From positions 1 through 38,188 of IMG/VR virus record IMGVR_UViG_3300043409_000989: a stretch of 38,188 bases of DNA. One strand, given 5' to 3'. Positions 1-38,188 of the stretch are shown here, one piece after another. The number at the start of each line of letters is the position of its first letter. The first letter of the stretch is position 1. Both the position numbers and the translations under genes were made by a program. Below the pieces are notes generated by a model, which saw nothing but the letters and a program-made list of their open reading frames with translations, had not been told where the DNA came from and did not search any database. Source of the stretch: a virus.

Positions 1-127
1 CATTGCGGCAACGTGCTCATAAGTGTGCGGCATTTCTGCCCCAGTATCCGCAAAAGATATAAAGTCTGGCCGGATGTTGCGATCACGGAATCCACAAAGC
101 ATAGCCGTTGAGTTTACCCCCCCCCCC
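1..127. repeat. Direct terminal repeat, left copy (circular assembly overlap)
   Basis: Bases 1-127 are identical to 38062-38188, including the final run of 11 C. An exact overlap of 127 bases is a typical assembler k-mer length, so this is best read as proof that the contig is circular (38061 bp unique) and not as a biological terminal repeat. A circular map can come from a circularly permuted or cohesive-ended linear virion DNA; the sequence alone cannot say which. The overlap lies inside the PAPS-reductase-like gene. Confidence 0.93.
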
Positions 128-232
128 GAATGAAACGCCAAGCCAAGCCCCACCTGAAATCGGAGCCAGCCCGATTGCGGGTTGAAACGTATCCTCGCCC
201 AAGAGGTTAAGGTCTTCAGCGTTGTTTGTCAT
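1..232 (-). CDS. PAPS-reductase-like protein, N-terminal part, frame broken at a poly-G tract
   Basis: This is the start of the gene that continues across the circle junction at 38061-37420. The ATG at 232 opens a frame that reaches a nucleotide-binding loop of the PP-loop type (S-F-G-G-G...). With the assembled 11 G (complement of 117-127) the frame runs on to a stop at 83-85. With 10 G it continues as V-N-S-T-A-M-L-C-G into the long downstream frame, giving a protein of about 290 aa. The S-F-G-G-G-V-N-S-T loop is the form seen in phage members of the PAPS reductase/ATP pyrophosphatase family. The ATG overlaps the preceding 41-aa gene by 17 bases and has no Shine-Dalgarno sequence. The break is either an assembly or sequencing length error or a real ON/OFF slippage switch. 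Confidence 0.75.
117..127 (-). repeat. Poly-G tract (11 G on the coding strand)
   Basis: Eleven C on the plus strand, read as G in the minus-strand gene. It encodes the glycines of the nucleotide-binding loop. Lengths of 10, 7 or 13 keep the PAPS-reductase-like gene in frame; 11 does not. The assembly begins and ends at this tract, as expected if read-level length variation stopped the assembler. Confidence 0.85.
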
Positions 233-6268: not shown

Positions 6269-6832
6269 TCAGCGGGCAACCTCTTTGTCGCAAACGCCAA
6301 GATCGTCTAGTTCAATAGGCAACAGCCCGGCGCGAATCCTCTCCATTGTCGTAATGTAGCCAAAGGCATTCCACGCCACCGCCGCCGCATGATCCTCGTC
6401 AAATGCGTATGCTACCTGACAGGCGTGCCGCGTGAGGCTGTTCTTGAACACGGAAAGCGGCTGGCCGAGTTCCCAATTCCTGTCCCCGTGTGCAGCCGCC
6501 CCGCGCTCGTAGTGCATCGCCAAAGCCCGCATTCCCTCTAGCGGCAAAAGGTCGTATCGCCCCTTGCCGGTCTTGTTCTGCCGAATAGACCCGCTGTTAA
6601 ACCTGTCCATTTGTGGTTCGCGGCCCACGATAGCCATAGGGAATCTGTATTCAAACTCATCCTCCTGATCCACGACCAAGCCGCTTGCTACCGTGTCCGC
6701 GTCTATTAGCGTCCACGAGTCTTCAAAGTCTATATTGCGCCAATAAACGCCGGGGAAAACGGGCTCCCCGTTGCCGAGCAAACGACTATTATCATCCGTT
6801 AAATCAATTCTGATGGTTGGGTTGTTTTGCAT
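6269..6832 (-). CDS. dATP/dGTP diphosphohydrolase-like protein (MazG-related), 187 aa
   Basis: The C-terminal half shows K-G-R-Y-D-L-L-P-L-E-G-M-R-A-L-A, H-Y-E-R-G-A-A-A-H-G-D-R-N-W-E and D-E-D-H-A-A-A-V-A-W-N, the signature of the dATP/dGTP diphosphohydrolase family (MazZ-like, all-alpha NTP pyrophosphatase). Such enzymes release pyrophosphate from (d)NTPs and shape nucleotide pools during phage infection. In 2-aminoadenine phages they act with PurZ, but no PurZ-like gene is present here. The first 80-90 residues (L-L-G-N-G-E-P-V-F-P-G-V-Y-W) are an extra domain I do not recognise. The start overlaps the HTH gene by 34 bases. ATG 6832 is the first plausible codon; there is no Shine-Dalgarno sequence. 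Confidence 0.78.
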   Translation of the reverse strand: MQNNPTIRIDLTDDNSRLLGNGEPVFPGVYWRNIDFEDSWTLIDADTVASGLVVDQEDEFEYRFPMAIVGREPQMDRFNSGSIRQNKTGKGRYDLLPLEGMRALAMHYERGAAAHGDRNWELGQPLSVFKNSLTRHACQVAYAFDEDHAAAVAWNAFGYITTMERIRAGLLPIELDDLGVCDKEVAR

Positions 6833-7146
6833 ATGTTCCTCACTGTGTTGATGTGGATGCCAAACTCGGTGGCAATTGCTTTTTGTGTCCGTTTTTCCTG
6901 TTGAGACAAGAATAAAATGCGCTCTTTCTGCTCTTTGTTGAGCGGCGTGCGATGCCCGCGCCGGGGCGTGTCGTCTGGAGCCGGTGCCTGGATCGAGAAG
7001 TCTGGATGCGAGGCGCAGAAACGGATGGCCGCGTCGATGCTCTTTCCGATGCTCAGGCGATAGGTGGCCCGCCAGTGGCAAAGAATCGCGTCCACCTCGG
7101 CGGAAACAAGCGGCCCGTTGCCGTGTAGTCTGATAAGGTTGCTCAT
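6799..7146 (-). CDS. Helix-turn-helix DNA-binding protein, 115 aa
   Basis: The C-terminus, L-N-K-E-Q-K-E-R-I-L-F-L followed by K-A-I-A-T-E-F-G-I-H-I-N-T-V-R-N-I-C-K, is a clear helix-turn-helix of the resolvase/Hin kind. A basic linker (P-R-R-G-H-R-T-P) precedes it. The N-terminal 65 residues are an unassigned helical region. The protein has no catalytic part, so it is likely a transcriptional regulator. ATG 7146 forms an ATGA overlap with the methyltransferase stop and carries the ctaacATG leader. Confidence 0.75.
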   Translation of the reverse strand: MSNLIRLHGNGPLVSAEVDAILCHWRATYRLSIGKSIDAAIRFCASHPDFSIQAPAPDDTPRRGHRTPLNKEQKERILFLSQQEKRTQKAIATEFGIHINTVRNICKTTQPSELI

Positions 7147-7751
7147 GTTAGTTTTCCCCATTGCGTTGCCATTGCTAAAGCGATCCCGCTGAATGTGCGG
7201 CTTCTCTCTCTCTCGCGGTCTGGACCGGGAGGCATCAGCCAAATGCGTTGTTCGCGGCCTGTGACAATGTTTGAGGGTAGGAGCATAGGTAGATTCTTTA
7301 GCCAAAGCCAAGTGGCTTTTTGCTCTCCGTGTCCGTGTTGCCAAGGGTGGATCACTTGGGTCTTTCGCGTTACAAGCGTGCTGGCCATGCTCATTGGGTT
7401 TTCTAAGCAAATTCTCGGGATTGGTGCTTCCCATAGCGTGCGGAAAAATGCTGCTGCTTCATCGCGAAGCCTGCGCTTTTCGGTGCCGTCATGCCAGCGT
7501 CCCGCCGTTCCCTTAACCTTTACCATGTGATCCGTGGCCCATCGTGCGCCGGAAAGGGATAGATGCGTGCAAGGTGGGTGGCCGATCATCATGTCCCAAC
7601 CGGCAGACAGGTGCGGCAAGACATCCCCTTCGATGTGCCAAGCGGGATCGCCCTCCGTTGGGCGCAGATCGCACGACCATGCATCATGCCCGGTGGCCCT
7701 GAACGCATCCCGCACGGTTGCGCTGTACTCGCACGCGATGAGGACGCGCAC
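7143..7751 (-). CDS. DNA cytosine-type methyltransferase-like protein, 202 aa
   Basis: Begins M-R-V-L-I-A-C-E-Y-S with a Rossmann-type SAM-binding strand, then D-A-W-S-C-D-L (acidic residue that would contact SAM). P-P-C-T-H-L-S at 59-65 matches the catalytic P-C of C5-methyltransferases, and L-E-N-P-M near 117-119 matches the E-N motif. The end (R-E-Q-R-I-W and R-S-R-T-F-S-G-I-A) is typical of a compact phage family annotated as cytosine methyltransferases. At 202 aa it lacks a large target-recognition domain. The start is GTG at 7751, placed directly after the TAG stop of the upstream gene and 5 bases after a 13-G tract that could act as its ribosome site. Its target is unknown. Confidence 0.78.
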   Translation of the reverse strand: MRVLIACEYSATVRDAFRATGHDAWSCDLRPTEGDPAWHIEGDVLPHLSAGWDMMIGHPPCTHLSLSGARWATDHMVKVKGTAGRWHDGTEKRRLRDEAAAFFRTLWEAPIPRICLENPMSMASTLVTRKTQVIHPWQHGHGEQKATWLWLKNLPMLLPSNIVTGREQRIWLMPPGPDRERERSRTFSGIALAMATQWGKLT

Positions 7752-7967
7752 CTAGTCCCCCCCCCCCCCGTTAAATGCGTCCTCGAAGGCCCAGGCAGCC
7801 GCAAGCTTGTGCTCCACGAGCCTAGCCTCGCGCTTCGCGGCCTTGTTGCCCTTGCCGGGTGCGCGGCGTTCCATGTTATCGGCCATTATGTAAGCGAAAG
7901 CGCGGCGCTTGGTGATGTTGTACAAAAAGTAGCTTTTGACTAGCTCTGGCAGGGGTAGTTTGCTCAT
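7752..7967 (-). CDS. Hypothetical protein ending in a poly-glycine tract, 71 aa
   Basis: Basic helical protein (R-R-A-P-G-K-G-N-K-A-A-K-R-E-A-R) whose last codons are aac, four ggg, gac and the TAG stop. The terminal glycines are encoded by the 13-G tract. Its TAG stop touches the methyltransferase GTG in the same reading frame, so amber read-through would give a fusion of about 274 aa. ATG 7967 forms an ATGA overlap with the gene before it. Function unknown. Confidence 0.7.
   Translation of the reverse strand: MSKLPLPELVKSYFLYNITKRRAFAYIMADNMERRAPGKGNKAAKREARLVEHKLAAAWAFEDAFNGGGGD
7757..7769 (-). repeat. Poly-G tract (13 G on the coding strand) before the methyltransferase
   Basis: Thirteen C on the plus strand, the longest homopolymer in the window. 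The present length places the upstream gene's TAG stop next to the GTG start. With 12 G the upstream frame would continue about 50 codons into the methyltransferase gene in the wrong frame; with 14 it would run about 20-30 codons further. Length change would therefore alter translational coupling. Confidence 0.9.
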
Positions 7968-8275: not shown

Positions 8276-8859
8276 TTTTGGGAGATAAAAGGGTTGGCCA
8301 CCATTTTGCGGAATTGGGCTGATTGGGCCGACTCCGCAGCCGACCACGCAGCCGACTCCGCAGCCGAACCCGCAGCCGAACCCGACCTCGCAGCCGACTC
8401 CGCAGCCGAACCCGCAGCCGAACCCGACCTCGCAGCCGACCACGCAGCCGACCACGCAGCCGACTCCGCAGCCGAACCCGCAGCCGAACCCGACCTCGCA
8501 GCCCACTCCGCAGCCGACCACGCAGCCGACAACTCCTCTTGCGTGGCGTTGCCGTTAGCAAATCGAGCCGCAACGTCCAGCGCGGCCAAGCTGCGCCGAT
8601 CCGTAAGCAGCGTGCCCGTAGTCCGACCATCGGCAAGCGGCGTGTTTCTCGCGCACCACACCATAAAAAGGCGGCACTTTTTTTCGTCCCGTGGAGCGTC
8701 AACCGCGTTCAGCATCCAGACGAGCCAATCGACACGCTGGCAGTTGTCCCAAACGTCCCGCATCGTCGCGTATTTGGCGGCAAACTCCGCGCCATCGCTA
8801 CACGCCCGAGTCGCTTTGCAAAACTCAGCCGGGGAAAGAGAGAGGAGGCGTTTTTTCAT
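8272..8859 (-). CDS. Ala/Ser tandem-repeat protein, 195 aa
   Basis: The N-terminal half (about 100 aa) contains C-K-A-T-R-A-C, W-D-N-C-Q-R-V-D-W-L-V-W-M-L and many helices. The C-terminal half is built of 4-residue units such as W-S-A-A, E-S-A-A, G-S-A-A and 6-residue R-S-G-S-A-A units, repeated about 15 times. Phage proteins with a 'CxR.DW.LW' region followed by (x-S-A-A)n repeats are common and have been grouped with putative immunity proteins; the role is unproven. ATG 8859 is preferred over ATG 8895 because it has GGGGGAAG five bases upstream and overlaps the previous stop as TGATG. The repeat number may vary between isolates. Confidence 0.75.
   Translation of the reverse strand: MKKRLLSLSPAEFCKATRACSDGAEFAAKYATMRDVWDNCQRVDWLVWMLNAVDAPRDEKKCRLFMVWCARNTPLADGRTTGTLLTDRRSLAALDVAARFANGNATQEELSAAWSAAEWAARSGSAAGSAAESAAWSAAWSAARSGSAAGSAAESAARSGSAAGSAAESAAWSAAESAQSAQFRKMVANPFISQK
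8336..8531. repeat. Tandem array of 12- and 18-bp units inside the repeat gene
   Basis: Units of the form GCAGCCGAxxxx follow one another without gaps: 12-bp types ending CCAC, CTCC or ACCC and an 18-bp type ending ACCCGACCTC. The 42-bp block (CTCC + ACCC + 18-bp type) occurs three times. All unit lengths are multiples of three, so copy-number change keeps the frame. It also keeps all six frames open, which creates long false ORFs on both strands. Confidence 0.9.
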
Positions 8860-13500: not shown

Positions 13501-13604
13501 TGTGCCATTTTGTCGCAGTGTTCAGGTGGACACTAGTGTCCGTCCGTACACTATGCCATCCTGTCCCTACGTACTGTGCCAATTTGTCACTGTGCCAATT
13601 TGTC
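13501..13604. repeat. Four TGTGCCAxTTTGTC iteron-like repeats
   Basis: TGTGCCATTTTGTC (13501-13514), a diverged copy TATGCCATCCTGTC (13552-13565), TGTGCCAATTTGTC (13575-13588) and TGTGCCAATTTGTC (13591-13604). The last two are identical and 16 bases apart. The palindrome GGACACTAGTGTCC lies between the first and second copies. Typical of initiator or repressor binding arrays. Confidence 0.65.
13528..13541. promoter_or_regulatory. Perfect 14-bp palindrome
   Basis: GGACACTAGTGTCC is fully self-complementary and lies between the first and second iteron copies. Half-site TAGTGTCC recurs at 13411-13418. A good operator candidate for a dimeric regulator. Confidence 0.5.
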
Positions 13605-13665
13605 CCACTAGGGGGGAGGGGGTCGCAGCCGGGCAGCGGGAGCAGGATTAGGATTGGTCCAGACC

Positions 13666-13846
13666 ACCGTTAAAAAAAGTGCCAAAGGACGGTCTAGGCA
13701 AGCTGTAAAAAAATAGCCAAGAGGGGTTTAAGTCACCGTTAAAAAAGTGCCAAAACAACGCCTTAATTGGATTTTTTGGAGTAGATGAAGTGACGTTTTA
13801 TCTATCGCTATAGGACGGTTAGGACGACCTGTAAAAAAATATGGCC
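13666..13846. repeat. Two interleaved A-tract repeat families
   Basis: Family 1, ACCGTTAAAAAA(A)GTGCCAAA, at 13666-13686 and 13735-13754. Family 2, starting GGACGGT and ending CTGTAAAAAAATA(T)GGCC or TAGCC, at 13687-13718 and 13813-13846. The A-tracts make this the most AT-rich part of the region, suited to strand opening. The order is 1-2-1-2. Candidate origin or control array for rightward transcription. Confidence 0.6.
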
Positions 13847-37419: not shown

Positions 37420-38188
37420 TTACCCACCATCATAGCAGCCGCATGGAACGTGCGATGGCTCAATGCCGTCAAACAGCTTTTGTTGCGCTGCGTCCATTGC
37501 TAGCCAGTTACGCCAAAGGTTGTTTTGCCCACCAAGCCCGCGCTTAGTTCTATTCGTAAGCTGGGCCGCATCTTCAATCTCCAAAGCGCGGGCAAGAAGT
37601 TCTGGGTATTTGTCACGCAATTCATACACTTCTCTTTTCTTCATTGCAGGACAGAAGTAGCAGGCGCTTTTGCCAGCTTGTGGAAGGCCGTGGCGTTTGA
37701 TGGCTGCAACGCAATCTTCCCTGCGCCAGCCCCATTCTATTAACGGATACCACGCTTGCCAGCGTTGTCCTTTACCTAATTTGCGGGGCAGCATATGCGC
37801 TTCCTTTACACGATGGGCTTCGTTTGCGTCAAATCCAATCGCCCGCCTTACTTCCACAACTCCCGCAGTACGCATTGCCTTACCAAGCGCTCTTTCTTGG
37901 GGTTCATGCTTGTATTTCATAGAGCATGAGCGACGGCCATAGGCAAGGCTGGGCATTTGTTTATGGCGGCGGCATTGCCCCTCAAGTCCTTCAAACCCCC
38001 CTTGATAGGTTTGTCTCACAGTCAATAACTCAATTCCCCACCACGCTTTGACCTGGGTGTGCATTGCGGCAACGTGCTCATAAGTGTGCGGCATTTCTGC
38101 CCCAGTATCCGCAAAAGATATAAAGTCTGGCCGGATGTTGCGATCACGGAATCCACAAAGCATAGCCGTTGAGTTTACCCCCCCCCCC
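37420..38188 (-). CDS. PAPS-reductase-like (ATP pyrophosphatase) protein, main part
   Basis: Continues the gene that starts at 232 on the circle. After the nucleotide-binding loop come F-A-D-T-G-A-E-M-P-H-T-Y (the substrate-side motif of PAPS/adenylyl-sulfate enzymes), S-C-S-M-K-Y-K, W-Y-P-L-I-E-W-G-W and a C-terminal C-Y-F-C-P-A-M-K-K. The P-C-G-C end may add a metal or thiol site. Such phage proteins activate a substrate with ATP and have been linked to sulfur transfer or nucleic-acid modification; the true substrate here is unknown. Bases 38062-38188 repeat 1-127. An internal ATG at 38163 can start a truncated product lacking the loop. Confidence 0.8.
   Translation of the reverse strand, partial: GGGVNSTAMLCGFRDRNIRPDFISFADTGAEMPHTYEHVAAMHTQVKAWWGIELLTVRQTYQGGFEGLEGQCRRHKQMPSLAYGRRSCSMKYKHEPQERALGKAMRTAGVVEVRRAIGFDANEAHRVKEAHMLPRKLGKGQRWQAWYPLIEWGWRREDCVAAIKRHGLPQAGKSACYFCPAMKKREVYELRDKYPELLARALEIEDAAQLTNRTKRGLGGQNNLWRNWLAMDAAQQKLFDGIEPSHVPCGCYDGG
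38062..38188. repeat. Direct terminal repeat, right copy
   Basis: Exact copy of 1-127, including the final 11 C. Collapsing the two copies gives the closed 38061-bp circle. Confidence 0.93.

Follow-up and report, generated by a model that had tools for sequence, protein, structure and literature searches.

The window, that is, the whole 38,188-nt stretch of viral DNA analysed here (IMG/VR record IMGVR_UViG_3300043409_000989), carries on its minus strand a PAPS-reductase-like gene interrupted by a run of 11 Gs, hereafter tract 1. A second long run, tract 2, which the first-pass annotation had overlooked, lies at the end of a 71-aa ORF, just ahead of a DNA methyltransferase-like gene (Table 1). 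Window positions 1–127 are repeated exactly at 38062–38188, which gives a circle of 38,061 bp. The largest k of SPAdes-type assemblies is 127, and this 127-bp repeat is therefore most likely an assembly overlap and not a biological terminal repeat.

Table 1. Poly-G tracts of the window and the features around them
Feature	Position	Strand	Remark
Poly-G tract 1 (G11 on coding strand; C11 as shown)	117..127	-	in nucleotide-binding loop of PAPS-reductase-like gene
Tract 1, second copy at far contig end	38178..38188	-	within 127-bp terminal overlap
Terminal overlap, identical to 1-127	38062..38188	.	ends exactly on last C of tract 1
N-terminal part from ATG232, 35 codons ending GAWLGVSF	128..232	-	VSF fits family consensus
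GTG153 and TTG141, possible starts in the frame that 11 Gs connect to the core	141..153	-	264 or 260 aa, loop FHSGGGVNST
247-aa frame from ATG38163, C-terminal body (phrog_424)	37420..38163	-	loop missing, every motif retained
Poly-G tract 2 (G13 on coding strand; C13)	7757..7769	-	end of 71-aa ORF, Shine-Dalgarno region of next gene
71-aa ORF ending FEDAFNGGGGD*	7752..7967	-	tail past FEDAFN varies among relatives
DNA methyltransferase-like gene (phrog_757)	7143..7751	-	GTG start directly after TAG, few nt past tract 2

Long G runs and contig ends

The window contains approximately 15,000 G/C runs. Five of them have a length of 6, none a length of 7–10, and there is a single run each of 11 and 13. 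Given this gap in the distribution, the length of tract 1 is beyond chance. A general inflation of G runs in the assembly was also considered and rejected: runs of 7–10 are absent, and a G6AG5 sequence near 13,610 is not inflated.

The contig is broken precisely where tract 1 ends, which places the tract at the assembly junction. A randomly placed junction would be expected to meet this end with a probability of the order of 1e–4 (a few positions out of 38,061). Contig ends in G-rich runs are also found among relatives sharing the capsid gene, namely in G035 (one end), G037 (both ends), G039 and G044. Reads carrying more than one length, which would make an assembly graph branch at such a run, are the simplest explanation; biological variation and PCR or sequencing slippage are not separated by contig ends. 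When IMG/VR was searched with the flanks and a variable gap between them, no further copy of this phage with another tract length turned up for either tract.

Two other repeats of the window were recorded. A G-rich element, AGGGGGGAGGGGGTC, with TTGGT and A-runs downstream of it, occupies approximately 13,600–13,680 in the intergenic space between divergent gene arms. It recurs in eight related records (L031, L034, L050, L052, L059, L076, L083 and G037) with G runs of 6 to 27, and contigs often end within it. A short-period tandem repeat at approximately 8327–8530 is open in several frames, being Pro/Gln/Asn/Thr-rich in one and Gly/Cys/Val-rich in another. Parts of it are matched more than once by the relative L115.

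The PAPS-reductase-like gene and its reading frame

The body of the gene matches phrog_424 (E = 8.8e–30), and the loop-less 247-aa fragment scores just under the PF01507 cut-off (22.3 versus 22.5 bits). The product is probably a phage PAPS-reductase-like enzyme, with the function taken from annotation. A sequence-profile search of solved structures returned no PDB relative. In an eight-sequence alignment that includes the window as one of the eight, the invariant positions covered by the window fragment are all kept. Divergence from the nearest relatives, L003 and L004, is much lower at nonsynonymous than at synonymous sites (pN ∼0.25, pS 0.80–0.84). The body of the gene has thus evolved under purifying selection, and the gene is otherwise intact. 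A shift in a gene that is conserved and undamaged elsewhere would have occurred recently or affect only a fraction of the phages.

The body, the loop and the conserved Cys motifs are like those of phage PAPS-reductase-like proteins (phrog_424/PF01507), but the assembled sequence puts the loop of the window out of frame. The loop [SA]-[YF]-G-G-G-x-N-S-T is encoded, yet at 11 Gs it is not joined to the body from ATG232, as it would be at a length of 1 mod 3. After the tract, the conserved frame starts with (G)TA AAC TCA ACG (V N S T), and only tract lengths of 1 mod 3 (10, 13) join it to the part read from ATG232. At 11 Gs the ATG232 protein stops after 49 codons, whereas the in-frame product would have 290 aa, compared with 286 and 289 aa in L003 and L004. 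The poly-G itself encodes Gly-Gly-Gly whichever frame is read.

To identify the native frame we compared 95 sampled homologous loops from IMG/VR, in which the family loop is [SA]-[YF]-G-G-G-[TV]-N-S-T. Directly before GGG, 94 of the 95 have Y or F; position –2 holds S or A in 93, and position –3 is one of V, A, I and L in 94. The V-S-F of the 10-G frame fits the consensus at all three positions. The F-H-S of the 11-G frame fits at none, loses the aromatic residue and occurs in 0 of the 95 loops. By this match of V-S-F, the homologous loops identify the frame joined to ATG232 as the native one. The first-pass annotation had claimed that 11 Gs break the gene and that 10 would join its halves, and both the frame reading and the homologous loops bear this out; the sound 247-aa C-terminal frame that it described is likewise present and conserved. 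The closest relatives carrying the gene reach only 64–67% protein identity and nothing closer was found, so the length before the slip is deduced from the frame.

The disruption at 11 Gs is not complete. Read upstream, the core frame continues without a stop past the loop as far as TTG141 and GTG153, and a GGTGGGG sequence lies upstream of TTG141. GTG and TTG starts are usually weak. Many relatives have only 6–12 residues before GGG, so a short N-terminus is not by itself disqualifying. The 'OFF' state at 11 Gs is thus not clean, since GTG153 or TTG141 could keep a loop-containing protein. The earlier proposal of a loop-less product from ATG38163 in the OFF state holds in part: the ORF is real and lacks the loop, but the two upstream starts still allow it. 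Together, these three weak starts (GTG153, TTG141 and ATG38163) may supply small amounts of a protein that is altered or lacks the loop.

Twelve records have the capsid gene in common with the window at ≥94% protein identity; none of them, the 39.3-kb L023 included, carries the PAPS-reductase-like gene, although many are fragments. The methyltransferase is present in 2 of 27 related records. Both genes look accessory, with the same reservation that many records are fragments.

Origin of tract 1 and comparison with tract 2

In the native frame the loop would read GGG GGG GGG GTA, which is exactly 10 Gs. A homologue, L013, has GGG GGG GGG GTG, also 10 Gs in frame, and its near twin L015 has GGG GGG GGT GTG; the pair shows the codon changes that build such a run. 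GGG makes up 28% of Gly codons in the minus-strand genes, and synonymous shuffling produced a loop run of at least 10 in 32 of 2000 trials (1.6%). As the choice of codons for Gly-Gly-Gly-Val alone yields 10 Gs, tract 1 is explicable without selection.

Runs of at least 8 Gs occur in only 3 of the 95 sampled loops, all of them in frame, and no homologue with an out-of-frame run of this size was found. A search for long-G-run loops elsewhere gave four viral matches. Three (L013, L014 and L015) are homologous loops in frame and the fourth (L016) belongs to an unrelated protein. Three matches in bacterial genomes were judged by eye to be chance matches outside the homologues and were set aside. 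With the tract not conserved across homologues, selection for switching is not indicated.

The situation at tract 2 is different in that a relative can be compared directly. The closest relative, L116, shares 85% DNA identity with the window over 6633–7962 and has G6 at the tract 2 site (around L116 3196–3201). A difference of seven bases exceeds read noise, and therefore the change in poly-G length between the two lineages is real. It breaks no conserved frame or domain, because the 71-aa ORF varies in its tail (GGGGD, GGTKCAS or KRTA after FEDAFN) and the methyltransferase start lies past the tract. Passive slippage where it is tolerated is thereby favoured over a designed switch. Fusion of the 71-aa ORF to the methyltransferase through tract 2 was rejected: at 13 Gs a TAG separates them, and adjacent tract lengths do not keep the frame. 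A search for long G runs before other methyltransferase starts found none.

In total, this 38-kb genome has two coding-strand runs of at least 10. Of 44 related records, only three carry a run this long, either at the end of a contig or inside the intergenic G-rich element. Two long runs in one genome are unusual, and more than neutral expectation alone suggests.

Explanations for the out-of-frame run

We favour, with a probability of about one half, the reading that tract 1 is a slip-prone poly-G run built by codon choice and now one base out of frame, in a phage population that is mixed or has recently shifted. Codon choice in the conserved Gly-Gly-Gly loop would seed an in-frame run of 10 Gs that is intrinsically prone to slip, and the assembled 11 would lie one slip step away. 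At 11 Gs the usual 290-aa product would be replaced by a 49-aa peptide from ATG232. Reads of more than one tract length may then have split the assembly graph and cut the contig at tract 1, as the position of the break suggests. Length switching would be passive, through replication slippage. The 13 versus 6 Gs at tract 2 speak for this reading, as a real poly-G expansion in the lineage. The excess of runs of at least 10 over neutral expectation (two here, against 3 of 44 related records with any) speaks against it.

The serious rival is a sequencing or assembly artefact, in which practically every copy of the phage DNA would have an in-frame length and the 11 would stem from PCR or sequencing slippage. 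We regard this as possible, if on balance unlikely. A contig end placed precisely on tract 1 would worsen slippage, poly-G runs of relatives likewise lie at contig ends, the gene is intact and conserved elsewhere, and only an in-frame length restores the family consensus. However, a C11-G path with both flanks is assembled inside the contig (1–250), and assemblers normally take the length with the best coverage. Between the window and L116, tract 2 differs by seven Gs, far beyond read-level slippage, and other G runs such as the G6AG5 are not inflated.

Adaptive phase variation, in which tract 1 would be kept as a contingency locus switching the PAPS-reductase-like protein on and off, is doubtful. 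The likeness to the bacterial loci of Neisseria, Campylobacter and Helicobacter is evident: tract 1 is a long homopolymer of comparable length, its length sets the coding frame, and it is one out of register in an otherwise intact gene, long enough for hypermutability. A second long run stands beside the methyltransferase-like gene. But bacterial poly-G contingency loci typically keep their tract across strains, whereas nearly all homologues here are without it (a G run of at least 8 in 3 of 95 loops). Codon choice accounts for the run, the length of tract 2 leaves the frame of conserved domains untouched, and the gene does not encode a surface or receptor protein. The contingency-locus switching proposed by the first-pass annotation is consequently not supported in its adaptive sense: few homologues have the tract, codon choice explains it, and the 'OFF' state is not clean.

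Poly-G phase variation is established in phages, and this counts for an adaptive reading. It is known in Campylobacter phages, and the phase-variable genes of Fletchervirus are described as receptor-binding proteins (Sorensen et al. 2021, Cell Rep 35:109214, as cited in PMC10877375 and PMC10579305). Both cases have a poly-G run in a phage coding frame in which one-base changes shift the frame. The differences are that Fletchervirus has receptor-binding proteins with phase-variable expression, whereas here an accessory enzyme carries the run, which sits in a catalytic loop, stems from Gly codons and is only putatively variable.

A broader version would have the phage vary, via slippage, two hypermutable poly-G tracts on accessory genes annotated as PAPS-reductase-type and DNA methylation; at tract 1 the loop would be kept in every frame, while the N-terminus and expression level change. 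We consider this improbable. More improbable still is that tract 1 switches the N-terminus and not the gene as a whole, 11 Gs linking the core to GTG153 or TTG141 and yielding a loop-containing enzyme with a short N-terminus. The in-frame starts, the GGTGGGG upstream of TTG141 and the relatives with 6–12 residues before GGG would permit this, but F-H-S before GGG is seen in none of the 95 loops, such starts are usually weak, and it is the 290-aa ATG232 product that matches the nearest relatives in size. Recent fixed loss of function, with the 11-G state fixed and the gene decaying, is the least likely of all: the assembled consensus is out of frame and the gene looks dispensable from its absence in the available sequence of capsid-gene-sharing relatives, but it has no second lesion, and many records without it are fragments.

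For annotation in general, a homopolymer-broken gene at the junction of a circular contig calls for a check of the reads before it is called a pseudogene. If tract lengths truly vary, phage poly-G phase variation would reach from receptor-binding proteins to an accessory enzyme, and the choice of codons in a glycine-rich active-site loop would prove able to give rise to a hypermutable tract.
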